Part shown: positions 14,891 through 40,883 of the stretch, one piece after another
Position numbering within the stretch: position 1 is the first letter of the stretch
Layout of the letters: every line of letters begins with the position of its first letter
Source of the DNA: Bacilli bacterium
Lineage (GTDB): Bacteria; Bacillota_I; Bacilli_A; RF39; UBA660
Length of the DNA stretch: 64,000 nucleotides
Assembly (NCBI GenBank): GCA_016283935.1
Contig: JAEENX010000007.1
Coordinates: 77,123-141,122, forward strand
Direction: 5' to 3'
The notes under the pieces: model-generated
Database searches by the model: none
Seen by the model: only the letters and a program-made list of their open reading frames with translations
Told to the model about the DNA's origin: nothing
Translations under genes and position numbers: made by a program

Positions 14891-16144
14891 ATGGCAAAGA
14901 GGTATCAATTAAAACCTATTTGGAAGTTTATATTTGTAATATCATTAGTAGGTATTACCCTTATATATGGATATATAGTAGATCATAGTAAAAAAAGTGA
15001 TAAAGATGATAATGATTTAAATATAATTGAAAAGATTACAAAGAAAAAAGAAGTTAAAAAGAAAGTTAATCTTACTTTAGTTGGCGACTTAATGTTTGAA
15101 GGTTTATACTTAGATTCATTAACCTCTGGTGATGATCCAAATACATACTTATCAATGGTAGCTGATAAATATTTTAAGAAAGATGATTTAACAATTGGTA
15201 ATTTAGAAACTACGATTACAGATAATAATAAACTTAAAGTAAATGGATATGGATATGAATTTTGTACACCTCAAGAAGTTATTAAAGGGTTAGATAACAA
15301 TTCAGTAGATGTTTTAGGAACAACTAATAACCATTCAACAGATCGAGGTATAGATGGCATTAATAATACAATAGATTATTTAAAAAATAATACAAATATA
15401 ATGTCAGTTGGATCATATAAATCTAAAGAAGATAGATCTAATTTAAGAATAAAAGAAATTAATGGTGTTAAAGTTGGTTTTATTGCATATGCTTTAGGTA
15501 TGAATGACTTTGGTAAATATATTACCAATGAAGAATCATATAGATTAGGATTATATAGAAATCCACCAAGTTATAATGTTATTACAGAAGAAAATAAAGA
15601 ATTAATAAGACAAGAAATAAGAGCTTTAAGAAAAGAATGTGATGTACTTGTTGCAATTATGCACTGGGGTCAAGAATTCCATTTTGAAGAACGTGAAGTT
15701 GATCAACATGCATTATCAAGATTGTTAAATGAAGAACATGTAGATATAGTATTAGGTTCTCATTCACACTGCATGCAACCAATTGAATGGTACACCGGAA
15801 GTGATAATTACAAAACTTTAGTATTCTACTCTCTTGGTAATTTTACATCATCTGATTATAGTTTAGATGGACGCGCAGGTCCTGAATATGTTAAAGCTTA
15901 TCAAGTAGCATTACTTGCAAATATAGATTTAGAATTAGATGATAATAATAAAGTATTATTTAATAAAATTAATACAGAACCAATTATAAATTACTTTAAT
16001 AAAGATAAAAAAGATTTTAGAATGATACCTTTATCTATGTATAATGATACATATGAAAAAAATCATTATATGTACGAAACAGGATTAAATAAAACATATA
16101 TAAATAATTTATATTCCAGAATTATTCCTGATGAATTTAGATAA
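14891..16144 (+). CDS. CapA/PgsA-like metallophosphatase (poly-gamma-glutamate biosynthesis-type)
   Basis: VGDLMFEG, GNLETTI, TNNHSTDRG, MHWGQEFHFE, GSHSHCMQPIE; start at MAKRYQ chosen over the upstream in-frame start at 14864. Confidence 0.9.
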   Translation: MAKRYQLKPIWKFIFVISLVGITLIYGYIVDHSKKSDKDDNDLNIIEKITKKKEVKKKVNLTLVGDLMFEGLYLDSLTSGDDPNTYLSMVADKYFKKDDLTIGNLETTITDNNKLKVNGYGYEFCTPQEVIKGLDNNSVDVLGTTNNHSTDRGIDGINNTIDYLKNNTNIMSVGSYKSKEDRSNLRIKEINGVKVGFIAYALGMNDFGKYITNEESYRLGLYRNPPSYNVITEENKELIRQEIRALRKECDVLVAIMHWGQEFHFEEREVDQHALSRLLNEEHVDIVLGSHSHCMQPIEWYTGSDNYKTLVFYSLGNFTSSDYSLDGRAGPEYVKAYQVALLANIDLELDDNNKVLFNKINTEPIINYFNKDKKDFRMIPLSMYNDTYEKNHYMYETGLNKTYINNLYSRIIPDEFR

Positions 16145-16145
16145 T

Positions 16146-16177
16146 AAAAAAAGCAACGTTAAACGTTGCTTTTTTTA
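16146..16177. terminator. Bidirectional intrinsic terminator between convergent genes
   Basis: AAAAAAAGCAACGTTAAACGTTGCTTTTTTT. Confidence 0.9.
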
Positions 16178-16190
16178 TTATTTAATTATT

Positions 16191-19100
16191 TTAATGATAT
16201 GTAGCCCAATGGACACCGGATGTTTCATCATTTGGTCTATAATTTCCACGAATAGTATCAATACCTTTATCTTTATTATTCCATACTTTATAACCCAAAT
16301 CTCCTGAAGAACCGATTGAAGAAATAGTTCCTAGGGATCTACTTAATTCAGTTAGGAATTTACTCTTACATTCACCACATGAATATTTCCAATTCTTATG
16401 TCCATCTGTACATGTATGTTCGTCTGCATCAATAGTACCACATTTTCCAGCATCTGATGAATCAATACTTGAATAGCAATTACAGTCATGATATTTATCT
16501 TTATCAAAAGAATTATAATCATATTTATTATTATATTTCTTAATTGATTTTAAGGCATCAGGGGTTAACTTATATGCATATGTTAAATTGTCTGGAGAAT
16601 ATGTTTTTCCCGCATTCGCATCATCTCTTATTTTTTTCCATGTACGTCCAAAACTACCATCTATCTTTTTCCAATTTAACGCTATAGGATTAGATGTATC
16701 GGTATATCTACCACCAGGGAACATATTTGCAGGATCTACAACTCTAAATTCATATACTTCATTGATAGTCCATGGTTTACAACCATCAAAATTAGAACTT
16801 ATTCCACCATTTGGATTACAACTTCCAATTCTCATACCACCATCTTGAATGTTCAAAGTACAAGTAAATGGTACAACAGAAGAAGAATTTTTCAAAGCCT
16901 CAGCAGTACCCTTTGACCATGCTTGACCAGATTCAGCACAAGTACTACCTTTTTCATTAAATGCTTTGACAAATTTAGTTAAAGTTCGTTTAGAACCTAA
17001 TCCTCTTATATCCCACCAAGTTTCAAATGAAGCACTATAAGTAGTTAAATAAACTGCATATTGATACTTATGACCCATTACATTCATTTCGCCAGATGTA
17101 TCAGTACCACGTGAGAATGTTGGACCAGGATACAATGTCATCGCTCCATCTTCTGATGGATCTGGGAACTTACAATCAATAGAATAAGAAATGTCCTTTG
17201 TTATTCTATTATTAAATATTGCAGTTGTATCATCAGATGTTATATCATCTTCATCCCTTATAGCCTTATCAGAAGAGCCTAGTTTTAAATCAGTCATATT
17301 TTCTTGTGATTTAAAATAATCAGTCGAATAATTTTGTCCACCACCACTATCAGCAGAACAAGTACATCCATCATTACAAGATACACTACCAAAACTTATT
17401 CTAAATTCTTGACTAGAATTTTTTCTACTTGCATTTAAGAATACTTGTAAGTAATGGAAATTTGCGCTCAATTTGAAATTATATTGTTCATCTGCTGAAG
17501 GATGATCAATAAATTCATTACAACCAGCAACAATATTTTCTAGGTCAGTAGCTCTTTTCTTATTTCTATCAAAATTATTGTAATCAGTTTCACTTGCTGC
17601 TGTATTTGCTTTTGACCAAGCATCTTGAGGATCTTGTTTTGTATATCCATTATGATCACTTTTTAGTGGCTCATACGAATAGCTTCCACTCTTAGTCCAA
17701 CCCTTGCCAGTCCATTCTGTTTCAACTGCTGAAACCTTAGTATCACAATCTTGCTTATTCATATTATAGTATGAATATCTTGCATATCTAATATTTTCTG
17801 TAGTACTAGATAGTTTTATTTCAAGACCTTTCCATTTCTTTGTACTAAATGGGAATTCATCATTTGCTTTTACTTGATAAGCTGTTGCAACATATTTTTG
17901 AGAATTACCACTACCTTCAGTAGTTGCACCTAAATAGGACTTTGGTTTTATTTCATATATATCATAATATGTTGTACATTGAGCAGGAGTTGTATCAGAA
18001 TCGGATTTGGTTTTTTCTTCACTTTCATACCCATCCCATTCACAATTTTTAGTTGAAGTTGCAGGACATATATGTTCGGTAGTATTATCTGAAGAACAAT
18101 CGCCTGAATCATCATAATTATATGCATAAACAGTACTACCTGGAGCAGCAGTATATTTTTTTGTTTTAGTACAGAAACTTTTCTTGAAAGTCAATGCTGG
18201 AGGAGTAAATGTATTAGATACTGGTTCGGCTGACGGATTATTTATTAAATCTGCCTTAACCTTATCTTTTTGATATTGATTATACCAATAAACTTCCCCA
18301 TCAGATGAGTTTTCGATATCTTTATTTTTATCATCGCCAACAGAACCTGTAACAGATCTTTCATAATGTGCTCTTAAAGTTCTGTAGTCTACTTTTAATC
18401 TACAATCTTTCTTACCTTTTACAATTGGTGACTTTGGCTCTTTTAATTTAAAGTATTTTCCAGTTGCTGAAGTGATCGAACCAGGGATTTGAACAGAAAT
18501 TTCTTCTCTACAAATAATTTTACAATAAGAATCAACATCTTCTACACCAGACTCTAATGTTATGCTTTCTTTCATTTGCTTTTCTAACTCAGCATCTTCA
18601 TAATACGAATTATTACACTTATCTGTATAATAAGTTGCTCCAATATATGAGTTTTTAGATGCTATAAATAAATAGTTTAAGGGTTTTTCCTTTAAATGAG
18701 ACTCTGTAGACTCTGTATCAGGATTACAACACAATTTGATTACCATATCGCTATCATCAAAATCATCTGGCTCAACTTTTTGATTTGGATCTTGATCATC
18801 TTTATTATCTTTGCTTTTTTGTTCTGTACACCCACCACAATCATCTGTTTCAGTAACAGGAATTGATGTGAACTTATCACCTGCAGGACCAGGTAAAAGT
18901 GCTACATATGATTGAGTAGCTCCATGACCATCACATATATAAGGTGTTGTTGCGGCAGATGTTACACCAGGAATAACACCTGTAATTGTTACTTTACCCT
19001 TACAATCACTTGATGTTGTTTTAGAAACTGTAAATGAGAATTTTGCAGATGTTCCATTCCATTCTTGTTCTATTTTTATTACAGTTCCTGTATCAGGTTT

Positions 19101-19844
19101 AATTGTTACATCTGTAGCTTTTACTCCATTTTTTGTTGTTACAGTATAACTTTTACCGGATTTAGTTAATTTAAAATATTGTCCTTCTAATGAAGTTGTT
19201 GGAGTAATACTTCCAATTGAAGAAGTACTTGCTGCAGTAACATGACTTACATTACCATCCCAATAAGCTGATAGCTCACCAAGTTTGCTTCTTACAGAAT
19301 TAAATGTACCTTCGTTTGGTAGGAAAGGTTTATTAACCTCTTCTACTTCTCCAACGTTATTTACTCCTCTTTCATATAAAGCTTGATGCCAGTTAACTGT
19401 TAAAATTACATTATTCTTTTTTCTATTAAATGCTTCATCAGCACCACTTGCATTGTAATTAACAGTTCCTCTTTCCATTATTCCTAATGTTCTATATAAA
19501 ATATCTTTATAATTAGTACCTGCACCATTTACACCAGCATCATTCAATGCTCTATATATCATAGGATATGAAGATTCATCAATTAATTCACAAGTAACAC
19601 GAGATGGAATACCTGCACCTGGATCTATACAGTATGCATCATAACTTTCATTACCAACTTTAATCGCATAAGTATGTGATGTATATGTCCCATATTCAGG
19701 ATCATCTGCACCAGTTGGAATTGAAATATCACCAGTCTTTTCTAATGCAGCTTCAAATGAAGTTGTTTTAGTAGCAGCTTGTACACTGTCACATATAAAA
19801 AATCCAAGAAATATCAAGGTGATTAATAATACTCTTTTTTTCAT
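16191..19844 (-). CDS. Very large secreted Cys-containing protein with variant thioester-like N-terminal domain
   Basis: Signal peptide; AYCIDPG ... NWHQALYERG; C-terminal half homologous by eye to 23632..27129 (GGMRIGSCNP, YEFRVVDPANMFPGG, TYSPDNLTYAYKL, CGTIDA...CGECKSKFL). Start at MKKRVLL (ORF-track start is 9 codons earlier and overlaps the upstream gene). Confidence 0.85.
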   Translation of the reverse strand: MKKRVLLITLIFLGFFICDSVQAATKTTSFEAALEKTGDISIPTGADDPEYGTYTSHTYAIKVGNESYDAYCIDPGAGIPSRVTCELIDESSYPMIYRALNDAGVNGAGTNYKDILYRTLGIMERGTVNYNASGADEAFNRKKNNVILTVNWHQALYERGVNNVGEVEEVNKPFLPNEGTFNSVRSKLGELSAYWDGNVSHVTAASTSSIGSITPTTSLEGQYFKLTKSGKSYTVTTKNGVKATDVTIKPDTGTVIKIEQEWNGTSAKFSFTVSKTTSSDCKGKVTITGVIPGVTSAATTPYICDGHGATQSYVALLPGPAGDKFTSIPVTETDDCGGCTEQKSKDNKDDQDPNQKVEPDDFDDSDMVIKLCCNPDTESTESHLKEKPLNYLFIASKNSYIGATYYTDKCNNSYYEDAELEKQMKESITLESGVEDVDSYCKIICREEISVQIPGSITSATGKYFKLKEPKSPIVKGKKDCRLKVDYRTLRAHYERSVTGSVGDDKNKDIENSSDGEVYWYNQYQKDKVKADLINNPSAEPVSNTFTPPALTFKKSFCTKTKKYTAAPGSTVYAYNYDDSGDCSSDNTTEHICPATSTKNCEWDGYESEEKTKSDSDTTPAQCTTYYDIYEIKPKSYLGATTEGSGNSQKYVATAYQVKANDEFPFSTKKWKGLEIKLSSTTENIRYARYSYYNMNKQDCDTKVSAVETEWTGKGWTKSGSYSYEPLKSDHNGYTKQDPQDAWSKANTAASETDYNNFDRNKKRATDLENIVAGCNEFIDHPSADEQYNFKLSANFHYLQVFLNASRKNSSQEFRISFGSVSCNDGCTCSADSGGGQNYSTDYFKSQENMTDLKLGSSDKAIRDEDDITSDDTTAIFNNRITKDISYSIDCKFPDPSEDGAMTLYPGPTFSRGTDTSGEMNVMGHKYQYAVYLTTYSASFETWWDIRGLGSKRTLTKFVKAFNEKGSTCAESGQAWSKGTAEALKNSSSVVPFTCTLNIQDGGMRIGSCNPNGGISSNFDGCKPWTINEVYEFRVVDPANMFPGGRYTDTSNPIALNWKKIDGSFGRTWKKIRDDANAGKTYSPDNLTYAYKLTPDALKSIKKYNNKYDYNSFDKDKYHDCNCYSSIDSSDAGKCGTIDADEHTCTDGHKNWKYSCGECKSKFLTELSRSLGTISSIGSSGDLGYKVWNNKDKGIDTIRGNYRPNDETSGVHWATYH

Positions 19845-19845
19845 A

Positions 19846-20763
19846 TTATTTTCTTCCTTTCTTGACAGCAAATAATACTAATAAAACTACTATCGCACCA
19901 AATATTATAGCAAACATTAATTTATTATTGTTAACATAATCAATTATTTTGTTAACAACATTATTAAATGTTACCTCATCCTTTTTACTCTCTTCTTGTT
20001 CTTTCTTTAGTTCTTCTTCTCTTTCATGTTCTTTTGATTTTTCTATCATAATACGTTTGAATTCTTTTAATTCTTCTCTTGAAGTTTTATTACTAAAGAT
20101 AAATGGTTGGCATATATCTAAATCTTTTGTGTAATCTAAGAAACAATCATAAGATCTTGAATTAGTATTAAACTTAGGAAGCATTACTTTAAATTCCCTA
20201 TAAACCTGATCAGTACATCCTTCATTATTTGAATATACTTTTACGTTATATGTTCTACAAAAAACAGTTTCACTTTCATACCAAGTAATAATTCCTTGTT
20301 CATTTTCATCAGTTACATGGAATGTTTTAATATCTTCATCAATATCATTTGAAATAGTTACATAGTTTTTATCAGTCAAGTTATTTAATTTAACTTTTAA
20401 TGCATATCCAATATTTTCAATTACAGGATCATCATCTATAACACCATTACCATTTAAATCTTCATCAGATTCTGCCATATATCCAAAAAAGAAATCATCA
20501 ACAACTTCATATGAAATTGTAATTTTATCAGCAGCTTTCTTGATTTCTTTAGATTGATTACCATCACATGATGTATCAGTATTAACTACTTTTTCATCTG
20601 ATGATAAAACATTTGGATCTTGTATTTCATCTTTTTTTGTAGGTTGATATATTATAGTAACAACTAATAAAGAAACTAATATTATTAATACTATAAATGC
20701 TTTAATAATTGGAGCATATTCACGAGAATTAGTTTTTTCTTCTTTTTCGATTTTTTTTCTCAT
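19846..20763 (-). CDS. Membrane-tethered extracellular protein, cassette component (two TM helices)
   Basis: N-terminal TM anchor, C-terminal TM (LMFAIIFGAIVVLLVLFAVKKGRK); paralogous to 21574..22389. Confidence 0.8.
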   Translation of the reverse strand: MRKKIEKEEKTNSREYAPIIKAFIVLIILVSLLVVTIIYQPTKKDEIQDPNVLSSDEKVVNTDTSCDGNQSKEIKKAADKITISYEVVDDFFFGYMAESDEDLNGNGVIDDDPVIENIGYALKVKLNNLTDKNYVTISNDIDEDIKTFHVTDENEQGIITWYESETVFCRTYNVKVYSNNEGCTDQVYREFKVMLPKFNTNSRSYDCFLDYTKDLDICQPFIFSNKTSREELKEFKRIMIEKSKEHEREEELKKEQEESKKDEVTFNNVVNKIIDYVNNNKLMFAIIFGAIVVLLVLFAVKKGRK

Positions 20764-21506
20764 ATTCTAGATTCACCTACTTTTCTAAATAAATAGATAA
20801 TAATAACTAAATCAATTATAATTCCTGATATCAAACCAAACATTACAACTTGTTTAATTAAAACTAAAGTATTGTATTTATCTTCATTCTTTTTATTTTC
20901 TTCACAGAATAAACATACACCAGTTGTTTTACTTTTTTCTTTATCTTTTTTGGCTTCTATCTTTTTTATGATCTCAGCTTCTCCAAATGGGAATGTTGTA
21001 TCAACCCATTCTTTACAATAAAGATAATCTTCTAAACCATCATATTTACATTGCTCTATTTTTGATATAGGATTATATCTTAACTTTTTAATAGTAATTG
21101 TTTTAAGTATACTTCCACATCCACTTTCAGAACTATAAACAAAGAAAGAGACAGAATATGTATCTTCTATATTATCATCAAAAACTTTTCCAATTCTTGT
21201 ATCAGGATCTAATTCAAGTAATGCAGAATCTGAATACGCACCAGCTTTTTGAGAACCTATTCCACTATAAACAACATACATATTTTCAGGAATGTTATAT
21301 ATTAAATAATTAAATCCAATAACTTCATTATTCTCATTATATACAAACTCATAAGTACCAGTTACTTTTGATGCCTTTTTAATTAATTCATTTAATTCTA
21401 TTGCATCACATGAATTAGTTGATTCAACATCTTCAGCCATTACAATTGGTAAAAATAAAAATATACAAATCATACAAATAAATATATAAAATATACTCTT
21501 CTTCAT
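20760..21506 (-). CDS. Secreted protein with C-terminal TM and juxtamembrane CLFC motif, cassette component
   Basis: Signal peptide, paralogous to 22389..23108; ATGA overlap with next gene. Confidence 0.8.
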   Translation of the reverse strand: MKKSIFYIFICMICIFLFLPIVMAEDVESTNSCDAIELNELIKKASKVTGTYEFVYNENNEVIGFNYLIYNIPENMYVVYSGIGSQKAGAYSDSALLELDPDTRIGKVFDDNIEDTYSVSFFVYSSESGCGSILKTITIKKLRYNPISKIEQCKYDGLEDYLYCKEWVDTTFPFGEAEIIKKIEAKKDKEKSKTTGVCLFCEENKKNEDKYNTLVLIKQVVMFGLISGIIIDLVIIIYLFRKVGESRI

Positions 21507-21547
21507 ATTATCAACTCTTATACATTATTATACCAATTTTTACAAAT

Positions 21548-21575
21548 AAAAAAAACAACTATTCGTTGTTTTTTT
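21548..21575 (-). terminator. Intrinsic terminator inside surface cluster
   Basis: AAAAACAACTATTCGTTGTTTTTTT hairpin plus T-tract. Confidence 0.75.
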
Positions 21576-22389
21576 ATCTAAGTTTTATAAAAATAAATAC
21601 TCCTGCAGCAGCAAATAATACAAATACTATTACAATTGATACAACATCTAATTTAGTTTCTTCTTTTTTGGCTGTTTCAAGCTTATTTAAAACAGATTCA
21701 TTAAAATTATCATATGTATATTCTACGCAGTATTTAGACTCTTTTCCTTCAGTAGTATTACATTTTTCATTATTATGTAAATCATTATATCTTGGTAATA
21801 CTACACTATAATTTTTAAGTAACTTATTACAATTTTCATCATTATTATAAACAAATACACTTACACTTGTTGTTTTGTATGATGAAAAAGGAATAGAAAT
21901 TTTACCATCTTTAGTATCTTTATAATAATATTTAATAGCATCACTATCATCTTCATCAGAAGAATATTCAACAACTACATAAACTTTATCAGTAATATTA
22001 TCAATAACTAGGTCAACGCCATTACGTAAATCTTTTTCATCAGGTTCAATTAATGTTCCATCTTCATCAATCATATTTTTTTGTTCACCAAAATAAAACT
22101 TCTCATCAGATTTTTTATAAGTAAGTTTAATGTTTTTTGAATCTTTAATAGCATCTTCACTGGCATCGCATTTTAATGAGTCACTTATTTTAACATCAGT
22201 TACATTTAAACTTATTTCTATTTTAGAAGAAAAATTATCTTCTGGTTTATATGCTATAAAAAATATTAATGCAATAACTAATGCAACAAAAACACCACCT
22301 AGAATAACTATTTGAAGACTATTGGCATTAGCAAACTTTTTTTCTCTTCCCAAATTTAATTTTGGTGTTTCTTCGTCATTATAATTCAT
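21574..22389 (-). CDS. Membrane-tethered extracellular protein, cassette component
   Basis: N-terminal TM and C-terminal TM; Cys in same relative order as 19846..20763 paralog. Confidence 0.8.
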   Translation of the reverse strand: MNYNDEETPKLNLGREKKFANANSLQIVILGGVFVALVIALIFFIAYKPEDNFSSKIEISLNVTDVKISDSLKCDASEDAIKDSKNIKLTYKKSDEKFYFGEQKNMIDEDGTLIEPDEKDLRNGVDLVIDNITDKVYVVVEYSSDEDDSDAIKYYYKDTKDGKISIPFSSYKTTSVSVFVYNNDENCNKLLKNYSVVLPRYNDLHNNEKCNTTEGKESKYCVEYTYDNFNESVLNKLETAKKEETKLDVVSIVIVFVLFAAAGVFIFIKLR

Positions 22390-23108
22390 TAAAGATCCCC
22401 ACCTTTTCCACTTCTATATAATAAAGCCATTGCAAGTAGTACTAGCACTAAAGATAGAACTGTTGCAATTATAATTGTATATTTATATTTTTTATAAATA
22501 TCCTTTAATGAATATGAAATAGTACCTATTCCACAGTCAACGCATTTTGAAGTAGCAGATGTTGTAGTTGTTTTATTAAGACTCTTCTTTAATAATTCTT
22601 CTACTTCTTTTTGATCCTTATTTATTTCTCTAGTAATCCATTCTTGGCAATAAGTTGATTTAGCATTTTCGTCATAAGAACAATATACTAATTCACTATA
22701 GATATTTCTTTTTGGTTTAACGACCTTTAATGATTTAACTTTATAATTACATCCTTCTGTCAACGAAAAAATATCAATAGAATAAGTATATATGTCAGTT
22801 AAATTATCATCATAAATAGTTCCTTTTCCATTTTCAATTTTTATACTATCATCTTTTTTAAATTTTTTATCTTTAACGCTATATAGTACATTCATATCAT
22901 CAGGAATATTATAAACAGTAATATTAAATCCTTTTACCTTTCCTGCATCATCATAAACGAATTCATATGAAGCAGTAGCAGACGAAACAGATTTTAAAAA
23001 TCCTGACTTCATTTCAGCAGTACATTTGTCAGTATCAGCATAAACAAATTTAGTTACTCCAAACATACTAAATAAAAACATTAATATAAATAATAAAGAT
23101 CTTTTCAT
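22389..23108 (-). CDS. Secreted protein with C-terminal TM and juxtamembrane CVDC motif, cassette component
   Basis: Signal peptide; shared TYEFVY/SYEFVY..GFN..VYNIP..VVYS/VLYS..YCQEW pattern with 20760..21506; stop/start overlap TAATG with next gene. Confidence 0.8.
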   Translation of the reverse strand: MKRSLLFILMFLFSMFGVTKFVYADTDKCTAEMKSGFLKSVSSATASYEFVYDDAGKVKGFNITVYNIPDDMNVLYSVKDKKFKKDDSIKIENGKGTIYDDNLTDIYTYSIDIFSLTEGCNYKVKSLKVVKPKRNIYSELVYCSYDENAKSTYCQEWITREINKDQKEVEELLKKSLNKTTTTSATSKCVDCGIGTISYSLKDIYKKYKYTIIIATVLSLVLVLLAMALLYRSGKGGDL

Positions 23109-23150
23109 ATATCATCATCCTCTATTATAATTATATCAAAATAAATAAAA

Positions 23151-23175
23151 AAAACAACGCAAAACGTTGTTTTTT
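23151..23175 (-). terminator. Intrinsic terminator inside surface cluster
   Basis: AACAACGCAAAACGTTGTTTTTTATTTT. Confidence 0.8.
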
Positions 23176-23180
23176 ATTTT

Positions 23181-23621
23181 TTAATCTTCAGGATTAAATA
23201 CTACTACATTTTTATTGTAATATTGGTTTGTATATAGTATTCCAGTTAATCTATTTGTTACCACATCGTCAACTTCTGTTTTACCTTTTGTACCATCTGC
23301 ATCTGATTTAATTTCAACTGATGCAGCTGGAGGATCTTCATAGATTTGATAGAAGTTAATTTCATATGTTTTGTTAATATTAACACTTTCTGCAAATCTT
23401 CTTAAGAAGTTTTCAACAAATTTTTCAGTATTCATTCTAATTCTTGAAGTATCTCTAAAGTATGCATAGTCTACTGACTCATACATACTAGCTTCTAATA
23501 CGTTTTTAATTAGGTAATAATCTTGTTCATTTGTTGTTGTATAGTTTTGTAATAATACCATTATTGACATGATTGATAGTCCTAAAACTATAAACCAATA
23601 TCCCCACATGCTCTCTTTCAT
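23181..23621 (-). CDS. Small single-TM protein, pseudopilin-like topology
   Basis: 146 aa, N-terminal hydrophobic helix GYWFIVLGLSIMSIMVLLQ followed by extracellular helical/beta region; co-directional with large NlpC/P60 gene. Confidence 0.7.
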   Translation of the reverse strand: MKESMWGYWFIVLGLSIMSIMVLLQNYTTTNEQDYYLIKNVLEASMYESVDYAYFRDTSRIRMNTEKFVENFLRRFAESVNINKTYEINFYQIYEDPPAASVEIKSDADGTKGKTEVDDVVTNRLTGILYTNQYYNKNVVVFNPED

Positions 23622-23631
23622 CTTCTACCTC

Positions 23632-26600
23632 CTATGCCCAATGATTTAAATTATCTCTAACTTGACTATAAGTATTTACTTTATTATTCCATGCATTTGG
23701 CAATTTCTTTGTATCATCAGTATATGTTTTTGTAGTATTAGATAAACTATTTAGGAATCTACTTTCACATTTTCTACAAGTATATTTCCATTTAGTTTTT
23801 GTTCCTTCTGTAATTAAACAACTACTATCTACTGGCTTATCTATAGTACCGCATCCTTTTTCATCAAGATCTGTTTCATCAGGACATGTACATTTCAAGT
23901 TAAAATCATCATAAGTTCTATCACCAGTTTTATTATATTCTTTAATAGCTTTTAAAGTATTAACATCAAGTTTATATGAATATGTTAAATTATCTGGTGA
24001 ATAAGTTTTATCTGCTTGAGCTCTTGCTTCAATTTCTCCTTTAGTACCGCCCCATTGTCCATCAGATTTTTTCCAGTTATGAGCTTTATCATTCCAATTT
24101 CCACTTGGGAAAAGCACTTTAGGATCTACAACTCTAAATTCAAATACTTCTTGAACTTTATTCTCATCACATGATTTATCAGCAGATCCAACACCAGGTT
24201 CACATGTACCTATTCTCATTCCACCTTCTTGAACATAAATAACACATGTTTGTTTTATATTACCTTCTTTATCAGGTTCAACATTTTCAATTTTTTCTGC
24301 TTGACCATTTGAATAAGCTGCACCACTTTGTGCACATGTATTTCCAGCTTCATTAAATGCTTTGATAAATTTATTTTTAGTTCTTTGAGATCCACCAATA
24401 TCTTTTATTTCCCAATAAGTTTCATATTCAGATGCAAAAGTTGTTAAGTATAATGCATATTGGTATTTATGACCAGTTATCATTTTTTCTCCAGCATCTG
24501 CCATTTCTTTAACAACAATTGGTCCAGGATATAATGTGTATTCTTCATCAACAACACTATCATCCCAAATACATTGTGCATCATATTGTGCATCTTGTCT
24601 AAATTTCTTATCAATTATATCGGCAGCATCAAGTGGGATTTGTGCTTCTGATGTAATAAATCCCATATTAGCAGTCCATTTCAAATCTTGCATTGATTCT
24701 TGACCATCTTTAAACTTACTTAGAGAATAATATGAATCAACACCATCGATATCTTCTACTCCAGTATTTTTAAATGTGTATTTACATTTAGCTTGACCAT
24801 ATGGCACTTCATTCCATTTATCATTCTTTGTATTCTTATCTAAATATGTTTGCATGTAATAGAATGTTGTACTTGGTTTTAATTGGAAAATATCACTACT
24901 GTCATGAGGAGCTGAGTCTTCTGCAGCTAAATCAGTATTATGGAACATTGTTTGACATTTAGTCATCGCATCTTCCAACTTTGTAGCATCAGATGTATAA
25001 CTACTTACATTATTTCTTGCATCATTTGCTTTACCTTCATAGCTATCAGCTTCAGCCTTCATATCAGCTTTTTTCAAACCATCTGGTAATTCTTTAGGAG
25101 TGCTATTTGCTGTACATGTCCATCCACCAGACTCACTACTTATTTTACTATTAACTGCTCCAGTACATGCATCTTCTTTAGGCATACCTGTAATTTCATC
25201 ATAAGTTGCTGTTTCAGTTCCTTTAGAAACAATCTTTAATCCGTTATAAGAAGTTCCATCAGTAAATGCATCATTTGGTTTAACTTGATAATATTTAATT
25301 GAACATTTACCACCACTGCAACTTATTGTAGTAGCTTTTCCACTTGTTTTAATCTTATATTGCCAATATTTATTATTACATGTTACTTTTTCTTCTTTTT
25401 CAGGAATATATGATTCATAATCAGCACATGTTGTAGTTCCACATGTTGCAGATTCACCAGAAGAATTAGTATATGTTGAATCTTTTAATACATAAACATC
25501 AACTTCACAGCCATCACTACTTCCACATGTAGCAACTGTACCATCACTTAAGTAATAACTTGTTCCATTACTAATCTTAGATTTCTTTTGTCTATATGAG
25601 CTTGTCTTGCTTACACATTTTAATGAAATATCTTGAGAGAATGATTTTTCTTCTTTAGAAGCATCTTTTAATAATTCATAGTAAGCTAAATTCTTTTGTA
25701 ATTCATTATATGCTTTAACTTCTAATTTAATTTGATCTTCGTAATCTTTTCTCCACTTATCATAAGCAATTTGTGCTGTACAAATCTTTCTACCAGTAAT
25801 AACTGGAGCTTTAGTAGTAGCAGAAGCTCCACTTAAATCAGTATATGTTAATTCTTTTAATTTGAAGAATTTACCAGTTGCTGATTCAATTTGTTTTGGA
25901 GTTTTTAAATCCATTTCTTCAACACAATACATTTTACAATAATCATTATTTAAATTTTTATCTTTAAATACGTCATCTTCATATAAATCATTATTACATT
26001 GATTTTTATAATATTTAACTTTTGTATTTTCGTCTTCATCTTTACAGAATAATTCACTTACATAATATTCTTTAATATGAGAATCACCATCTAAACAACA
26101 ATTGTTTATAACAGATGTTCCTTTATCAACGTAGTCTTCTTTTATAACAATGTCATCACATGTATCACATGTACATAATTCACTATTATCTAAATGTAAT
26201 GGTTCAGCTCCGCTACAAGTATCATCTGCTTTAGGTCCGCCACCTGATACTACAGCAGGAACTCTCCAATAGTAAACAGCTTTACCAGATGCTTGTGCTT
26301 GATCGAAATAAGCATTTTCAGCAACATTATCATCTGTACCATTTGTATGAATAAATGCCCAAGATCCTCCACTTGTTGGTGTACTTGATACAATACCAAT
26401 ATGTTTTACTTTACTGTCTTCTGGCTTAGTACTTGAAACTAAGTCACAAACTTGAGCTTGATCTTTTGTAATTGAAATAACTTGTCCACCAGAAGTTATA
26501 TTAGCAACGCTAGCATTAAAAGCTCCTCCAGATGGATATAAATCAATACCATGTCTTTTATAAATCCACCAAACAAAACCAGAACAGTCTAGACCAGTAT

Positions 26601-27129
26601 GTCCTTTACCATCACCATGTCTACTTAAATTCTTAGCTTTATTTCTAGGATTTGCAGGTTCCATAGAATTAATACCTTTTATATGTGGATATGAATCAGT
26701 CCAAATTGTATTAAATTTACATTCTTCAAAACTTGTAGACTTACATTTACCACCATATTCATAAGGAATCTTACCAATCATGCTTCTAGCATCACTAATA
26801 ATAGATTCACATTCTGCTGAAGGTGTTGCACTACTACATCCTTCAGTCTTATCATATTTTAAAGTCACATCTCCAATGCAATCAGGAGAAGAAAAAGTTA
26901 CTGTTAATAAACCAGATACTCCATCAGCATTCCAAACTAAGTTAGCACTTGAAACGCCTTCACCTTTTTCTACAGTAACATGAGTGTATTTTATTGATGA
27001 AGTTATATTATACTTTGCAGTCTTACCACTACTAGATTGAAGTGTATATTTAAACTCAGCAAATACATTTCCCTTCATACATAAGAAACTCAACAAAAAT
27101 ACTACTACAAAAGTTAAATACTTTCTCAT
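23632..27129 (-). CDS. Very large secreted Cys-containing protein with NlpC/P60 peptidase-like domain
   Basis: Signal peptide; GLDCSGFVWWIYKRHGIDLY catalytic Cys block, HIGIVSS and FIHTNG His blocks; C-terminal half homologous to 16191..19844. Confidence 0.85.
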   Translation of the reverse strand: MRKYLTFVVVFLLSFLCMKGNVFAEFKYTLQSSSGKTAKYNITSSIKYTHVTVEKGEGVSSANLVWNADGVSGLLTVTFSSPDCIGDVTLKYDKTEGCSSATPSAECESIISDARSMIGKIPYEYGGKCKSTSFEECKFNTIWTDSYPHIKGINSMEPANPRNKAKNLSRHGDGKGHTGLDCSGFVWWIYKRHGIDLYPSGGAFNASVANITSGGQVISITKDQAQVCDLVSSTKPEDSKVKHIGIVSSTPTSGGSWAFIHTNGTDDNVAENAYFDQAQASGKAVYYWRVPAVVSGGGPKADDTCSGAEPLHLDNSELCTCDTCDDIVIKEDYVDKGTSVINNCCLDGDSHIKEYYVSELFCKDEDENTKVKYYKNQCNNDLYEDDVFKDKNLNNDYCKMYCVEEMDLKTPKQIESATGKFFKLKELTYTDLSGASATTKAPVITGRKICTAQIAYDKWRKDYEDQIKLEVKAYNELQKNLAYYELLKDASKEEKSFSQDISLKCVSKTSSYRQKKSKISNGTSYYLSDGTVATCGSSDGCEVDVYVLKDSTYTNSSGESATCGTTTCADYESYIPEKEEKVTCNNKYWQYKIKTSGKATTISCSGGKCSIKYYQVKPNDAFTDGTSYNGLKIVSKGTETATYDEITGMPKEDACTGAVNSKISSESGGWTCTANSTPKELPDGLKKADMKAEADSYEGKANDARNNVSSYTSDATKLEDAMTKCQTMFHNTDLAAEDSAPHDSSDIFQLKPSTTFYYMQTYLDKNTKNDKWNEVPYGQAKCKYTFKNTGVEDIDGVDSYYSLSKFKDGQESMQDLKWTANMGFITSEAQIPLDAADIIDKKFRQDAQYDAQCIWDDSVVDEEYTLYPGPIVVKEMADAGEKMITGHKYQYALYLTTFASEYETYWEIKDIGGSQRTKNKFIKAFNEAGNTCAQSGAAYSNGQAEKIENVEPDKEGNIKQTCVIYVQEGGMRIGTCEPGVGSADKSCDENKVQEVFEFRVVDPKVLFPSGNWNDKAHNWKKSDGQWGGTKGEIEARAQADKTYSPDNLTYSYKLDVNTLKAIKEYNKTGDRTYDDFNLKCTCPDETDLDEKGCGTIDKPVDSSCLITEGTKTKWKYTCRKCESRFLNSLSNTTKTYTDDTKKLPNAWNNKVNTYSQVRDNLNHWA

Positions 27130-33196: not shown

Positions 33197-36100
33197 TTAC
33201 ACATATCTTTTAAATATATTACGCTTACTTATTCTAATTAATAATAAAGTTAATATTATAATTGGAATAGATAATAAATAATACGTTTTAAACTCACCAG
33301 TTGATGGGTTTTCATCAACTTTAAGTATTTCTTCTTGTACTACTTCTTTAACTCTCTTCTTATATTTATAAGTTAAAGTTTGATCTACAAGTTCTACTTT
33401 ATAATTTGATGAACTTGGTGTTTCTACTAAAGTATATTCTTCTATATTTTTAGATATAGGAGTTATTAATGTTCCAACTAAATCATTAAATATTACTTGT
33501 TCACTTATTTCTTCATTTGTATCAATATCTAAATATTTAACAATTATATTTCTATATACTTTAACATCTGTTATACCAGATGTTTCTTTTATATTAGAAT
33601 TATTATCTAATACTATACTTCCTGAAACATTATTAATAATTGGTTCATTTATTTTAGCATCAAGGAATACTATCTTTATACCTTTAGTATATTCTTTTTC
33701 AGTAGATTCTAGGTTATCAACATTATCATTTATAATCCATGTAATTGTTCTTGTAGATGAATTATATGTACCTCCATCTAAATTAGATTTTTCTTCATCT
33801 ATTTTATATGGTAATACATCTTTTATAATTACTTTAGATTCACCTAAATAATTAGATGTTTTAAACTTATAAGTTATTTTAATATTAACTTCTTCATCAA
33901 CTTCACTTATTACTTCAGGAGCTTCTACTTCAATATTTGTTATTAAATCAGAATCAATCATTTCATAGTAATATACTACTTCAGTAACTTCTGATTTAAT
34001 AGTACCTTTATAATTACTTGGAGTAATCTTTAAAGTATAATTATCAGTTACATTAGATGAAGCTGAAGTTTCATACTCTTCTCCATATAATTTAAAGTAT
34101 TCTTCTTGAGTAGCTAATTCCTTATTAGTTTCATATTGTAAGTGTTTAACAACTAATTTATATTTTTCTAATACATTTATAGTATTTAAAGATTCTCTTG
34201 TATCAGATGTATTTTCAGCATTTAAAACACTTGTAACCTTAGCTTCATACCTTTTAGCACTTATTGGTACATTCTTATAAGTAACTTTTATATTATGTTC
34301 ATAATTATAAGTTTTTATATCTATAGTAGTCGTTGAATCAACATAATTCCATGTAATAGTTTTATTACTTGAATTATATGTTCCTCCATTTACATTAGAT
34401 TTATCAATATCTATTTCATATGGAAGTTCAACTACTATATTAGTACTATATTCGCCTATTAAATCTTTAACTGAACCCGAATAAGAAATCTTATAATCTA
34501 TAGATTCAAATCTGTTTTCAATAGATTCAGGTCCCGTCATATTAACAAATCCCATTAATACAGGTGTCTTCTTTTCATATAAATAAGTTACTATTGTTTC
34601 TTCAGCTAATATATTACCTTTATAATTGCTTGGTCTTGTTTTTAACTTATAATTTGCTGGTAATTTTTCACTTATACTAACTTCATAAGATTCATTGTAA
34701 TATTTTTCAAAGACATCATTATCAGCTAATACTTTATTAGTTCCATATTCTAAATGCTTAACTATAATTTTATATTTTTCTTTTATTTCAGTTGATGTTT
34801 CTTTATTAGAAGACATAGTTCCTAATTCATTTGAAATAGTACTTATATAATTAACATTTAATGTTAATACATCAATTGGAATGTTTTTATATACTAAACT
34901 AATATCATGACTAGTACTATAATTACCTACATTTGCTGTTGTTGTTTCATATGGAGTTGTCCATGTAATCTTCTTTGTTGAATTATTATATGTTCCTCCA
35001 TCTAAATTAGATTTAGTTAGATCTATTTCATATGGAAGTTCTATAACATCAGTAATTGTTCCTGATCCAATGAAATCTTTTACAGTAGAAGCACTTACTA
35101 TACTATACGTAATAGGATCTACTCTATGTTCAATTAAATCAGTAGATGTAATTGAAACATTACTTGTTAAATTTGGATTTTTCTTTTCATATAAATAAAT
35201 TACAACTGTTTCTTCTGATTTAACAGTTCCTTTATAATTATCTGGTCTTGTTTTTAATTTATAATTACCAGGTAAATTAGAAGACTCACCTACTTCATAT
35301 GATTCATTGTAATACTTATAATATGTATCAACTGGAGCAATTTCTTTATTAGTTCCATATTCTAAATGTTTAACTGTTATTTTATATTTTTCTTTTATTT
35401 CAGTTGACTTAGAAGCAGTCTTTTCAATTTGATTAATGTCATTTATATACTCACTTACATAATTAGCATCTATATTTAAAACACTTATTGGAATATTTTT
35501 ATAAACAATACTTATTTCATGACTTGTTGTAATTGTATTAATATCTACATTTTCAACATCAACTTCTTTTATCCAAGTTATTTCTTTATCATTTTTATCA
35601 TATGTTCCACCAGCTAAATTAGATTTAGTTGTATCTATTTCATATGGTAATTGAATAGTTTCTATTAATGCACTATAACCTAAATAATCTTTAACAGTAA
35701 CTGTACTATTAACTTTATAAGTTACAGATGCTGTTCTTGAATCAATAGTATCACTTCCGGTTATAATTATTTCATTTGTTAATACAGGTGTTTTCTTTTC
35801 ATATACATAAGTAACTGTTGTTTCTTCAGCCAATACATATCCTTTATAATTATCTGGTCTTGTTTTTAATTGATAGTTTCCAGGTAATGAAGAACTTATT
35901 CCATATTCATATGATTCATTATAATATTTATAATATGTTTCCTCAGGTGCTACAACTCTATTTTCTTTGTCTAAATGTTTAACTGTTATCTTATATTTTT
36001 CATTTATTTCAGTAGATGCAGATGCACTTGAAGATTTATCATTTAAATCATTACTGATTTTACTTGTATAAGTAGCAGTCATATTTCTTGCACTTATTGG

Positions 36101-39100
36101 TATATTTTTATATACAATTCTTACTTCATGTGAAGTATCAATTGAATTAATATCAGCAGATGTTGTTGAATATGATTTAGTCCATGTAATAGTTTTTCTA
36201 TAAGCATCATATGTTCCTCCTGTAAATAATGATTTACTTATATCTATTACATATGGAAGTTCTAATACTTCAGTAACTTTACCTGTTCCAATATATTCTT
36301 TTATAGTTGATGTACTAGAAAGATTATATGTTACTTGTTTAGTTCTATTATCAATTTCACTTGTACCAGTTATATTACTTTCACTTGTTAATACAGGTGT
36401 TTTCTTTTCATATAGATAAGTTATAACTGTTTCTTCAGCAAGAACATTACCCTTGTAATTATCTGGTCTTGTTTTTAATTTATAGTTGCCAGGTAATGAA
36501 GAACTTTCTCCATATTCATATGCTTCATTATAATATTTATAATATGTTTCTTCTGGAGCTATTACATTGTTTGTACCATCTTCTAAATGTTTAACTGTTA
36601 TTTTATATTTTTCATTTACAGTAGTATATAATCCATCTACGCTTCCTGTTCCACGTGGTACATCTGTTTGATAACTGCATCCATAACTTGCTTGTGCGGC
36701 AATTTCTCTATCACTAATTGGAACATTTTTATAAACAACACTTATTGTATGATCAGTTTCAAATTCATGTTTATCTACTGAATCAATATCAGTATTAACA
36801 TGCCAGTCAACTCTATTATTTTCAGAATCATATGTTCCACCATCTAAATCAGATTTAGTTAAATCTATTTCATAATGGAATGTAAAAGATTCACCATATC
36901 CATAAGTACCAATGTAATCCTCAATACTATAGTTTGTTTTAATTGAATAAGTTACAGCATCAGTTCTATGATCAATGGCCTCAGTTGCACTTCTAGTACT
37001 ATTAAAGGATACTATTGGATCTTTATATTTGTAATAATAATTAACTTCTGTTACACCTTTGCTAATTGTTCCATTTGGTTCATCTCCATCTGTTCTATAG
37101 AACACATAATTTGGAGGAAGACTATCACTTTGTGATGTAGTATAAGTCTTACCAAATAGAAGATTATCATATACTTCATCTGGAAGGAATGGAATAACTT
37201 GACCTTCAAGATAATGTTTAACAATTAATTTAGCTGGTAAAGATACTGTTGCAACATTTGAGTTTATTCCTACTACATCAGGAATGATGTTATTAGTTGA
37301 ATCTAATGCATTCCATTCAACCCATGAACCATTGTAAGTACGATATTTAGTACCACTTATTGCAGATGGAGATCTCATGATTACTTCTACATAAGTCAAA
37401 GTATCTTCAGGTAATACTGCTTTATTACCTGATCCATCTAAATATTCAAATGCTAATGATTTAACTTTAGATTTATCAGTCGAAGAATTATAAACTTTCC
37501 ATGAAGTATCACTTGATAAACTTCCTGGTTTATCATTTTCTGAATAATAAACTTTAACTGTATATCCTTGAGATTCAGCAAATGATGTGTCTACATCTTT
37601 AAATGTACCTTGGAAATAATTATTCTCACCTGCTGCTAAAACATAATTACTATCTCTCTTTATATACTTTTCTAATGAATCATATATAACCATATTAGTA
37701 ATTTTGTTTGCACCACTTCTAGCTCTTAATTTATAAGTATACTGATTATTTAAAGATACATTTACTTCTTCACCATAGTTATCTTTATCAGTCTTAGCAG
37801 TTGTTTTTAAACTTTGACTAGATTCTGTAGCTGTTGTAATTGTTCTATTAGAAACACTACGATATAAATACTCTTCTGTATCACCATTACCATTTACATC
37901 ATAAGAATCCTTTACATATCCATATTCGCCAGCTGTTCCCTTTTTAGTAAAGGAATCAATAAATGATTCAAGGGCAACATTTTTTCCATATTCACTTAAA
38001 GAATCACTATTTATATATGTTTTAAAATTAATATCCATAAAAGACATAGCTCCATAAGGATAATATACCCTGTTGGAATAATTTTTAAACCATGATAGAT
38101 CTAATGGATCATCATTTAAATCAATTGTAATTATTAACATTTGTCTATCAGAATCATTCCAATTATTAATTACTTCAAACGTCATATGTTGATTAATATA
38201 GTCTTTAAATTCATCAGAATTCATGTAACCACGATTTGTAGAGCGATATAAACTGTGATTTATTCCAGATTCAGCCCATGGACTAACATAAGAAACTTTT
38301 ACAGAAAATTCAGATTCATCATCTACATATAGTCCTTCCGACAATAATGCATATATTGTTTCTCCTTTATAATTATTAGATTGATCAGAAAAATGTAATG
38401 ATAAACCTCCTTCAGAATAATATAAATTATTATTCATATTTTTAAAAGGAATTAAATTAGCATATTGAAATGCATAACAATTTATTATTTTTCCAACATA
38501 ACTATAATATGTTCTTTTTAAATCTGTTCCAAAATGATTAAGATCATATTCATGTACGTAATCATAGCCATCTGATGTGGAATCAAGAGCAGTAGGACTA
38601 ATTAATTCGTTATCATTATAGACGGCCATCATTGGAGATATTCTGATAACATCATCTATGTCTAAATTAGTATCACTCAATCTTATAAAAGAATATGTAC
38701 TCATTGACATTGATAAATTATACTCGTGAATAGTAAAATAATAACCGCAAACCTTCTTTGGAAAATTTTCAAATATTTTCCCAGAGTTATTAAATGATTC
38801 ATATAAAGTATAATTATTTTCATTTTCATATCTAACATACAAATCAACCAAATATTTGCCATTTTTTATATTATTCCAATTACCATCTTTAAAATAATCT
38901 TGAAATAGTTTTGATTCATCTTCATTATACCCAGGAAATATAATTGTTTCATATCCGAATTCTTCGTCAGACAATTTTTTTTCAACACCATTTTTATACT
39001 TTATATATATGACATCGCTTCCTATTTGTTGTGTCAAAGTTCTTCTTGATGGATTTTTTAATTCATAATTTACTTGAAGAGGAATAATACCATTGTCTTT

Positions 39101-40276
39101 TCCTAATAAACTATAATCATAATTATTATCATACAATCTACCAGTAATATAATATTTAATTGAGTCTTCAAGTTTATATTTTGATAAATCAATATTATTA
39201 TCAAATTCTAATATTTTTTCTAAAGGAAGATTATCATCTAAATAACCACCATAATAATAATTTCCATACATTCCAACTTTAAAATTAAAATTATCATCAA
39301 CGCTTGATGGAATACCTACTGATACTCTACCAAAACACTTGGAATTCTCCGATAAATATCCTACTGGATCATGAGCATCAAATGATACAATACCTCCATA
39401 CACACAACCGGTTGTAAAATAATCATTAATTGGTTTATCTACTCCAGAATATAATATTTTTGATCCTTCTGGTAAATCAAATTTAAAATGGAAGTTTGAA
39501 TATGCCTTTGCACCACCATCTTGATTAAATTCGAAATCGTATTCAAACCATGTATAATCTCCTTCTGGTAATCCGTCATAAGAACTGTAACTATAAATCC
39601 TAGTTTTTTTTAAAACCATTTCATCATTAGTAGCATCAAATGCTATAGTAATAGGATTACTATTAACTGTTGAATTTAAAACACTGCTAAATGTACTTGT
39701 AGTATTATTTTTTAATGTAGCAGCATACATAACATATGATATTTGAATACTTCCTTCATAATTAATATTAGCAAGTATCTCATTATTATTATAAAGAATT
39801 ATCTTTGTTTTATCTGATGAATATTTATATGACCAATCGTAATAATGAGGTGAATTACCACTATAATTAATATCAGCACTAATTACTATTACATCTGACA
39901 TATAAGAAACAAGCGCACTAGACAAATTCATAAACCCAGCAAATATATTATCTACTTCAATCTCCAAATCTCCTGCTTTATATGATGCAGATAAATCTGT
40001 TTTTTTATAATTTACTTGATATGTTAAAGTTCTTTGATCTTCAAATTCGGTAGCATGCCACTCATAGTTTGTATATTGATTTTTATCTTCATCTAATAAT
40101 ACAGCAGATATTTCCATACCTGATACATCTACTGTAGATAAATATAATTTATGAACTGTTTCTCCAATATAAGTTTTAATATTTTTATAATTATATGCAC
40201 ATAAAGATAGTACTAAATCAAATAGAATAAATGCTATAACTAATACAATTATTTTCTTTCTATTTATTTTTCCCAT
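33197..40276 (-). CDS. Giant repeat-containing cell-surface protein (MucBP-like repeats) with NPSTG sorting signal
   Basis: 2359 aa; N-terminal TM/signal; repeated KYKITVKHLE..YYKYYNE.YE.GESS.LPGNYKLKTRPDNYKG...ETVVTYLYEKK units; C-term ENPSTGEFKTYYLLSIPIIILTLLLIRISKRNIFKRYV. Confidence 0.9.
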   Translation of the reverse strand: MGKINRKKIIVLVIAFILFDLVLSLCAYNYKNIKTYIGETVHKLYLSTVDVSGMEISAVLLDEDKNQYTNYEWHATEFEDQRTLTYQVNYKKTDLSASYKAGDLEIEVDNIFAGFMNLSSALVSYMSDVIVISADINYSGNSPHYYDWSYKYSSDKTKIILYNNNEILANINYEGSIQISYVMYAATLKNNTTSTFSSVLNSTVNSNPITIAFDATNDEMVLKKTRIYSYSSYDGLPEGDYTWFEYDFEFNQDGGAKAYSNFHFKFDLPEGSKILYSGVDKPINDYFTTGCVYGGIVSFDAHDPVGYLSENSKCFGRVSVGIPSSVDDNFNFKVGMYGNYYYGGYLDDNLPLEKILEFDNNIDLSKYKLEDSIKYYITGRLYDNNYDYSLLGKDNGIIPLQVNYELKNPSRRTLTQQIGSDVIYIKYKNGVEKKLSDEEFGYETIIFPGYNEDESKLFQDYFKDGNWNNIKNGKYLVDLYVRYENENNYTLYESFNNSGKIFENFPKKVCGYYFTIHEYNLSMSMSTYSFIRLSDTNLDIDDVIRISPMMAVYNDNELISPTALDSTSDGYDYVHEYDLNHFGTDLKRTYYSYVGKIINCYAFQYANLIPFKNMNNNLYYSEGGLSLHFSDQSNNYKGETIYALLSEGLYVDDESEFSVKVSYVSPWAESGINHSLYRSTNRGYMNSDEFKDYINQHMTFEVINNWNDSDRQMLIITIDLNDDPLDLSWFKNYSNRVYYPYGAMSFMDINFKTYINSDSLSEYGKNVALESFIDSFTKKGTAGEYGYVKDSYDVNGNGDTEEYLYRSVSNRTITTATESSQSLKTTAKTDKDNYGEEVNVSLNNQYTYKLRARSGANKITNMVIYDSLEKYIKRDSNYVLAAGENNYFQGTFKDVDTSFAESQGYTVKVYYSENDKPGSLSSDTSWKVYNSSTDKSKVKSLAFEYLDGSGNKAVLPEDTLTYVEVIMRSPSAISGTKYRTYNGSWVEWNALDSTNNIIPDVVGINSNVATVSLPAKLIVKHYLEGQVIPFLPDEVYDNLLFGKTYTTSQSDSLPPNYVFYRTDGDEPNGTISKGVTEVNYYYKYKDPIVSFNSTRSATEAIDHRTDAVTYSIKTNYSIEDYIGTYGYGESFTFHYEIDLTKSDLDGGTYDSENNRVDWHVNTDIDSVDKHEFETDHTISVVYKNVPISDREIAAQASYGCSYQTDVPRGTGSVDGLYTTVNEKYKITVKHLEDGTNNVIAPEETYYKYYNEAYEYGESSSLPGNYKLKTRPDNYKGNVLAEETVITYLYEKKTPVLTSESNITGTSEIDNRTKQVTYNLSSTSTIKEYIGTGKVTEVLELPYVIDISKSLFTGGTYDAYRKTITWTKSYSTTSADINSIDTSHEVRIVYKNIPISARNMTATYTSKISNDLNDKSSSASASTEINEKYKITVKHLDKENRVVAPEETYYKYYNESYEYGISSSLPGNYQLKTRPDNYKGYVLAEETTVTYVYEKKTPVLTNEIIITGSDTIDSRTASVTYKVNSTVTVKDYLGYSALIETIQLPYEIDTTKSNLAGGTYDKNDKEITWIKEVDVENVDINTITTSHEISIVYKNIPISVLNIDANYVSEYINDINQIEKTASKSTEIKEKYKITVKHLEYGTNKEIAPVDTYYKYYNESYEVGESSNLPGNYKLKTRPDNYKGTVKSEETVVIYLYEKKNPNLTSNVSITSTDLIEHRVDPITYSIVSASTVKDFIGSGTITDVIELPYEIDLTKSNLDGGTYNNSTKKITWTTPYETTTANVGNYSTSHDISLVYKNIPIDVLTLNVNYISTISNELGTMSSNKETSTEIKEKYKIIVKHLEYGTNKVLADNDVFEKYYNESYEVSISEKLPANYKLKTRPSNYKGNILAEETIVTYLYEKKTPVLMGFVNMTGPESIENRFESIDYKISYSGSVKDLIGEYSTNIVVELPYEIDIDKSNVNGGTYNSSNKTITWNYVDSTTTIDIKTYNYEHNIKVTYKNVPISAKRYEAKVTSVLNAENTSDTRESLNTINVLEKYKLVVKHLQYETNKELATQEEYFKLYGEEYETSASSNVTDNYTLKITPSNYKGTIKSEVTEVVYYYEMIDSDLITNIEVEAPEVISEVDEEVNIKITYKFKTSNYLGESKVIIKDVLPYKIDEEKSNLDGGTYNSSTRTITWIINDNVDNLESTEKEYTKGIKIVFLDAKINEPIINNVSGSIVLDNNSNIKETSGITDVKVYRNIIVKYLDIDTNEEISEQVIFNDLVGTLITPISKNIEEYTLVETPSSSNYKVELVDQTLTYKYKKRVKEVVQEEILKVDENPSTGEFKTYYLLSIPIIILTLLLIRISKRNIFKRYV
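33480..37230 (-). repeat. Tandem ~610-bp protein-coding repeat array in giant surface protein
   Basis: The 'VKHL' block recurs at about 37.21, 36.59, 35.98, 35.37, 34.76, 34.14 and 33.53 kb. Confidence 0.8.
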
Positions 40277-40361: not shown

Positions 40362-40396
40362 AAAAAAACTTCAACTCGGTCTTCCCCAAATCAAAG
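40362..40396 (-). terminator. Intrinsic terminator of ~515-nt ncRNA candidate
   Basis: Minus strand CTTTGATTTGG-GGAAGA-CCGAGTTGAAG-TTTTTTT, 11-bp stem with wobbles. Confidence 0.75.
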
Positions 40397-40877
40397 TCTA
40401 TTTGTATGGTATACTATAAATCAAATTTACGGCTTAGGTCGAGAAGAGTTTCTCAACTTCCAACTCTTGATTACTCTTAAGCACTTTCGTTTTAATGGAA
40501 GTTGTTAAGCATCTCTACTTAACGTCTCGATTACCACTTAGTCCGCACCTCAATACCTATAGTATATACACGCTAGAGGTTTTCCCTAACATAAGTGACT
40601 ATTCTTATATGCTTTTGCATTAATCATTTCATGTCCATTTCGAATCAATCCCGGATTAACACTCACATCATGTACGTATTATATTATTCTCATTATTGAG
40701 TGACGCGATATAAGGAGTTATCAGCTACATGCCATTGTAGTTATCCTCATGTCTTAAATTACTATCTCACCCCAACTTGGGCAGAAGAAGCAAAATAGCA
40801 AAGTGTCATTCGACATTCTGGTGGATTTTTAGCCCCACCTTCAAATAGTATAATGACTAGCATAATGCACCACACAT
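40362..40877 (-). ncRNA. Candidate ~515-nt large structured ncRNA (unknown class; ROOL/GOLLD/OLE-like size)
   Basis: ORF-poor and visibly less AT-rich than other intergenic DNA; promoter TTGCCA-N17-TATAAT (40884-40912); many local hairpins (GGTGG..CCACC; TGTCGAATGACA; CTACAATGGCATGTAG; CTCAATAATGAG; GTTAAGTAGAGATGCTTAAC; ATGCAAAAGCAT); terminator at 40362-40396. Confidence 0.72.
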
Positions 40878-40883
40878 GTGAAC

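Follow-up and report, generated by a model that had tools for sequence, protein, structure and literature searches.

A duplicated locus for giant secreted proteins and a DUF5411 protein, probably the extracytoplasmic arm of a Tad-like pilus machine

Judging from their sequences and gene neighbourhoods, seven consecutive minus-strand genes of a monoderm gut bacterium probably encode those parts of a Tad-like (type IVc-like) pilus machine that lie outside the cytoplasm. They occupy positions 16191-27129 of the window, i.e. the whole 64,000-nucleotide stretch of DNA that was analysed, which forms part of one contig (C4) of a 1.29-Mb genome (27 contigs, 96.5% complete). The named relatives of this organism are uncultured Bacilli, Erysipelotrichales and Tenericutes MAGs, many of animal-gut origin. 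The initial annotation of the locus had recognised a duplicated cassette that resembled no named system. The duplication is consistent with everything found since. The second statement must be abandoned: a Tad/type-IV-pilus-like operon begins with this cassette, and the one gene that had been left without a name (23181-23621) encodes a DUF5411 protein, which explains the locus. The Tad-like pilus is a known kind of system, and what would be new here is a set of interchangeable giant adhesins.

Gene order and the small membrane partners

All seven open reading frames were confirmed in place. Their order of transcription is A2-D-C2-B2-C1-B1-A1, where A1 and A2 are the giant proteins, B1, B2, C1 and C2 the small partners and D the DUF5411 protein. 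A hairpin scan placed a terminator-like structure between D and C2 (23149-23175, minus strand) and a bidirectional one after A1 (16139-16183); 7 terminator-like hairpins were found versus 2.6 expected in shuffles. Sequence searches of Pfam, NCBIfam and the PDB with the window's proteins recognised DUF5411 and NlpC/P60 only. The two copies of the cassette had been described as having different gene orders. This is accounted for by the situation in close relatives, in which one or two units, mostly ordered C-B-A-D, lie at a constant site flanked by a coiled-coil/methyltransferase pair on one side and a PGA_cap/RecX pair on the other. A second D, or a remnant of one, was looked for in the window and not found.

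Among the small partners, all encoded on the minus strand, B1 (19846-20763) has an N-terminal and a C-terminal transmembrane segment (TM) and an Ig-like ectodomain with four invariant cysteines, and B2 (21574-22389) is its paralogue. C1 (20760-21506) consists of a signal peptide, an Ig-like ectodomain and a C-terminal TM, and is paralogous to C2 (22389-23108). The two pairs noticed earlier are genuine (C1 and C2 share 31% identity, 8e-26; B1 and B2 26%, 9e-9), but they are not separate families. B and C proteins match each other (B1-C1, 1e-7; B2-C1, 1e-8), and four cysteines and one asparagine are invariant across 51 relatives. All four are therefore members of one family existing in two anchoring forms, the C types with a signal peptide and a C-terminal TM, the B types with two TMs. 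C1 is modelled by AlphaFold with a pLDDT of 88; a Foldseek search with its ectodomain returned nothing more specific than generic Ig-like beta sandwiches, the best at E 3e-3, and profile searches of the small partners against the PDB gave no usable match. Weak matches of these proteins to eukaryotic membrane families were rejected as effects of TM composition.

Elsewhere in the window, a full-length OLE RNA (RF01071; 226.9 bits, E 1.2e-62) lies at 40390-40889 on the minus strand, just upstream of a gene on the same strand (33197-40276). The 2359-aa surface protein encoded by that gene has a C-terminal TM and contains repeats of the form '..KHLEYGTNKEIA..YYKYYNESYE..'. OLE RNA is known from extremophilic and anaerobic Gram-positive bacteria.

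The giant proteins and their N-terminal modules

A1 (16191-19844, minus strand; best start the ATG at 19844) is a protein of 1217 residues with 34 cysteines, predicted to comprise a signal peptide, a class-II-like thioester domain, a beta domain and a stalk/base region shared with A2. The latter (23632-27129, minus strand; 1165 residues, 42 cysteines) has a signal peptide, a beta domain, an NlpC/P60 domain and the shared region. As had been noted before, neither carries an anchor: the LPxTG motif and a C-terminal TM are absent from both. The resemblance between the two, first seen as a common C-terminal region, reaches well beyond the C-terminus, over about 860 residues (A1 357-1214 against A2 329-1165; 32% identity, E 5.6e-101), leaving the N-terminal modules as the only part that differs. 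This conserved region, delimited by aligning each protein with the other and with 40 giants, corresponds to positions 16203-18776 in A1 and 23635-26145 in A2 (both minus strand) and is common to both head types. Profile searches of the giants against the PDB gave no usable match. The AlphaFold model of A1, built with 40 relatives, had a mean pLDDT of 65.7 and a pTM of 0.52 and found no Foldseek match at E < 0.04; no fold is therefore claimed for the giant. One match to the A profile (locus L035) was rejected as spurious, being 280 residues long and devoid of cysteine. When the window was compared with a sister genome (L108), the giants had a dN/dS of 0.39-0.51, compared with 0.12-0.13 in flanking genes and 0.08 in D; these ratios are rough since dS is high.

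The N-terminal module of A1 (residues ~24-320; 18885-19775, minus strand) is predicted to be a class-II-like thioester domain. The prediction draws on an alignment of 43 distinct giants with this type of module, chosen by their C-x-D motif, in which the motif's cysteine is present in 43/43 and a distant glutamine in 42/43, the runner-up glutamine column reaching 12/43. The predicted thioester residues of A1 are Cys72 (within YCIDP; codon 19629-19631, minus strand) and, some 240 residues further on, Gln311 (within TQSYV; codon 18912-18914, minus strand); such a residue pair serves other bacteria for covalent attachment to surfaces. A first alignment of the module had suggested a conserved arginine in place of the glutamine, a reading overturned by the longer one. 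The Pfam TED/TED_2 profiles gave 4 hits in a set of 25 N-terminal regions (best 1.7e-5), in relatives and not in A1 itself, and AlphaFold confidence is low over this part of A1. The corresponding residues of TIEpLS20 are Cys68, also in YCID, and Gln256; its C68S mutant is inactive, making the cysteine essential (PMC8092201). The YCID of A1 is the same motif and fits the pattern [YFL]C-hydrophobic-polar near the N-terminus. A1 resembles the class II thioester adhesins TIEpLS20 and BaTIE in its signal peptide, its [YF]C[hydrophobic]D motif and its conserved distant glutamine. It differs from them in having no sortase signal, in being encoded with pilus genes and in the Cys-rich conserved region, instead of recognised Cna domains, that follows the thioester module.

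The module of A2 is of another kind. Residues 174-273 (26311-26610, minus strand) match NlpC/P60 in Pfam (32.9 bits for a cut-off of 23; 6.8e-8), with the candidate Cys-His-His residues C182, H243 and H261 all present, and the domain is also found in the A2 orthologue of the sister genome L108. Apart from the locus, a 447-aa protein with an N-terminal TM, encoded at 47722-49065 on the plus strand, has a C-terminal FTCSGFV which, read by eye only, is suggestive of a further wall hydrolase of the NlpC/P60 type.

The DUF5411 protein and its operon

D (23181-23621, minus strand; 146 residues) is assigned to DUF5411 with 174.6 bits (cut-off 30; E 1.2e-51), a domain that 121/147 genomes of the organism's family possess, against 0/14 control genomes. 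Its pilin-like N-terminus (MKES.WG, then a TM) has the short M[KR][ED]..G start that D has in common with the pilin-like and TadE/F-like proteins described below, and for this reason we propose that D is a minor-pilin-like adaptor.

The neighbourhood was surveyed twice, around DUF5411 or a giant in the family genomes and, by DUF5411 alone, at 75 loci in GTDB genomes. In the latter survey, the gene directly upstream of D encodes a giant in 72/75 loci and the gene directly downstream CpaB in 50/74. The usual order, seen in dozens of loci, is small partner-giant-D-CpaB-CpaF-TadB-like-TadC-like, after which come one or two pilin-like genes (65-95 aa), two TadE/F-like genes, a protein in the TadZ position and VirB2/VirB6-like genes. 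The cassette components thus co-occur in relatives. Across 53 genomes, the CpaF-type ATPase is present in 31/33 that have D and in 2/20 that do not (Fisher P 5e-10, a value that overstates independence, the genomes being related). G061 and G074 have the ATPase and no D; G036 (contig C6, L091) has DUF5411, a giant-sized open reading frame and a small partner, and no CpaF-type ATPase.

In the window's own genome, CpaB (two copies), CpaF and the TadB-like and TadC-like proteins are encoded on contig C18 (L027, 5483-10664), and the pilin-like, TadE/F-like, TadZ-like and VirB2-like genes on contig C8 (L088, 11413-14880). The operon thus occupies three places in the window's genus, a three-contig split that is read from a MAG, and two relatives, G043 and G021, show this split too. 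The window therefore carries the exported part only.

Assignment of the machine components varies in firmness. CpaB matches RcpC (PF16976) with 29.2 bits for a cut-off of 28.8. The C18 ATPase matches T2SSE (2.2e-25), the solved CpaF (9e-14) and also the solved FlaI, as well as the TadA (2.5e-27) and VirB11 (2.2e-30) families, both below their equivalog cut-offs; its sequence places it in the TadA/VirB11/FlaI group. The TadB-like and TadC-like proteins are adjacent and of the right size and TM pattern, but they have no profile match to T2SSF (PF00482) and no support from hhalign, for which the profiles were shallow, so that homology with TadB and TadC is not proven. The pilin-like, TadE/F-like and TadZ-like proteins are without a Pfam match and were labelled from position, size, TM and N-terminal pattern, the ~80-aa and 140-190-aa proteins each starting with a short M[KR][ED]..G leader and having a single TM, at the N-terminus. 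Hence our wording "Tad-like". The genome has one Peptidase_A24 prepilin peptidase, on contig C14 adjoining a PilC-like gene, which is possibly shared.

A conventional type IV pilus set is also present in this genome (C14, L183; C27, L026), with a PilC-like protein having two T2SSF domains, the prepilin peptidase, a PilB-like ATPase and a GFTLVEL pilin. In relatives, VirB2-, VirB6/TrbL- and VirB4-like genes follow the tad-like genes (L090, 9651-15021) and a VirD4-like gene follows TadC (L033, 3-1892), so that a chromosomal type IV secretion system is linked to the pilus operon.

In genomes with two cassettes, the D copies are 99.2-100% identical at the DNA level in 5/6 cases (L108, 100%; L111, 99.3%; L112, 100%; L115, 100%; L132, 99.2%; L148, 80%). 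Short-read assembly can inflate the identity of such near-identical repeats; mismatches are kept in L111 and L132. In the same genomes, the giants are 32-50% and the best-matching small partners 32-43% identical (protein), the latter with no homogenisation between copies, and in most of them identity ends within tens of bases of D. Near-identical D copies next to divergent giants suggest alternative heads on one conserved adaptor.

Several of these features have counterparts elsewhere. Like the Tad/Flp (type IVc) pilus, the system has a TadA/CpaF-family ATPase, CpaB/RcpC, two proteins of TadB/TadC topology, ~80-aa pilin-like and TadE/F-like proteins and a protein in the TadZ position; unlike it, its TadB/TadC-like proteins do not match T2SSF, and DUF5411, the giants and the Ig-like membrane partners are added. 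A secretion operon predicted for Clostridia by Miller et al. 2022 (PMC9523054) combines DUF5411 with CpaF, PilC/GspF and an internalin-B-like protein. Both operons set DUF5411 beside a CpaF-type ATPase, an inner-membrane protein and a surface protein in gut Firmicutes; the window comes from a different class of bacteria, and the passage on the Clostridia operon mentions neither giants with thioester or NlpC/P60 heads nor a B/C family or identical D copies. In the Caulobacter Tad pilus, CpaL is a candidate pilus-tip minor pilin (PMC12607857). There too a large adhesive or sensing module is proposed to sit at a Tad pilus tip with minor pilins, but CpaL joins pilin and vWA in one chain, whereas the pilin-like D and the giant head are separate genes.

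Possible functions of the complex

Taken together, these data lead us to the following model. The giants would leave the cell via Sec and be held or chaperoned by the membrane-anchored Ig-like B and C partners. The initial annotation had likewise supposed that the small proteins tether the giants, which agrees with everything found, the holding itself being deduced from sequence. The conserved 860-residue part would dock on D, on the B/C partners or on both, and D, as a minor-pilin-like adaptor, would couple the giants to the Tad-like machine. The variable N-terminal module would then be displayed at the cell surface or at the pilus tip and act on a target: A1 may grip it covalently through a Cys72-Gln311 thioester, and the NlpC/P60 domain of A2 may cleave peptidoglycan. 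With two cassettes, one machine would have two interchangeable heads, and the sharing of one filament by both heads would explain why D stays identical from copy to copy. A more tentative proposal, which we regard as possible though somewhat doubtful, is that the giants are non-pilin heads that can be exchanged, some being covalent thioester adhesins, and that they are mounted on a DUF5411 adaptor homogenised by gene conversion, so that a filament machine is re-tooled by head swapping.

Other explanations deserve consideration. The complex could be independent of any pilus, with B and C holding the giants on the membrane as a static adhesin or for wall remodelling, and its linkage to Tad-like genes merely historical. 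The separation of the cassette from the motor operon in the window's genus, the lack of a recognised pilin-like segment in the giants and the G036 locus, which keeps D, a giant-sized open reading frame and a small partner without the ATPase, would fit. We nevertheless consider it unlikely: almost every giant has D as its conserved neighbour, and D starts with a pilin-like N-terminus, co-occurs with the ATPase (31/33 vs 2/20) and is kept identical between cassettes. A contact-dependent delivery or killing machine, in which a Tad-like apparatus puts giant effectors onto other bacteria, is highly improbable. The Kil apparatus of Myxococcus reportedly acts in this way on prey, a Tad-like apparatus for predation has been described (PMC8460266), and both A2 and its sister-genome counterpart have NlpC/P60, but this domain is equally explained by remodelling of the cell's own wall, most giants have no recognised enzyme domain and no immunity gene was recognised.

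The giants might also join cells for DNA transfer, as mating-pair adhesins of a chromosomal type IV secretion system. The VirB2-, VirB6/TrbL-, VirB4- and VirD4-like genes directly after the operon in relatives point that way, as does the role of the TED adhesin TIEpLS20 in conjugation (PMC8092201). However, the constant neighbours of D are CpaB, CpaF, TadB and TadC, with the secretion genes more distant; such genes were not located near the window's cassette, and neither a relaxase nor an element boundary was seen. We hold this to be very unlikely, and retain the arm of a Tad-like pilus machine as the probable identity of the locus.

The operon is kept in most genomes of a little-known gut family with reduced genomes, and therefore probably has a central part in the attachment of these bacteria to hosts, food particles or other cells. 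If the model is true, a type IV filament machine would here serve a thioester adhesin, bringing together two ways of adhering that are each known on their own. DUF5411, being conserved, offers a marker for finding the system, and this domain of unknown function acquires a testable role.
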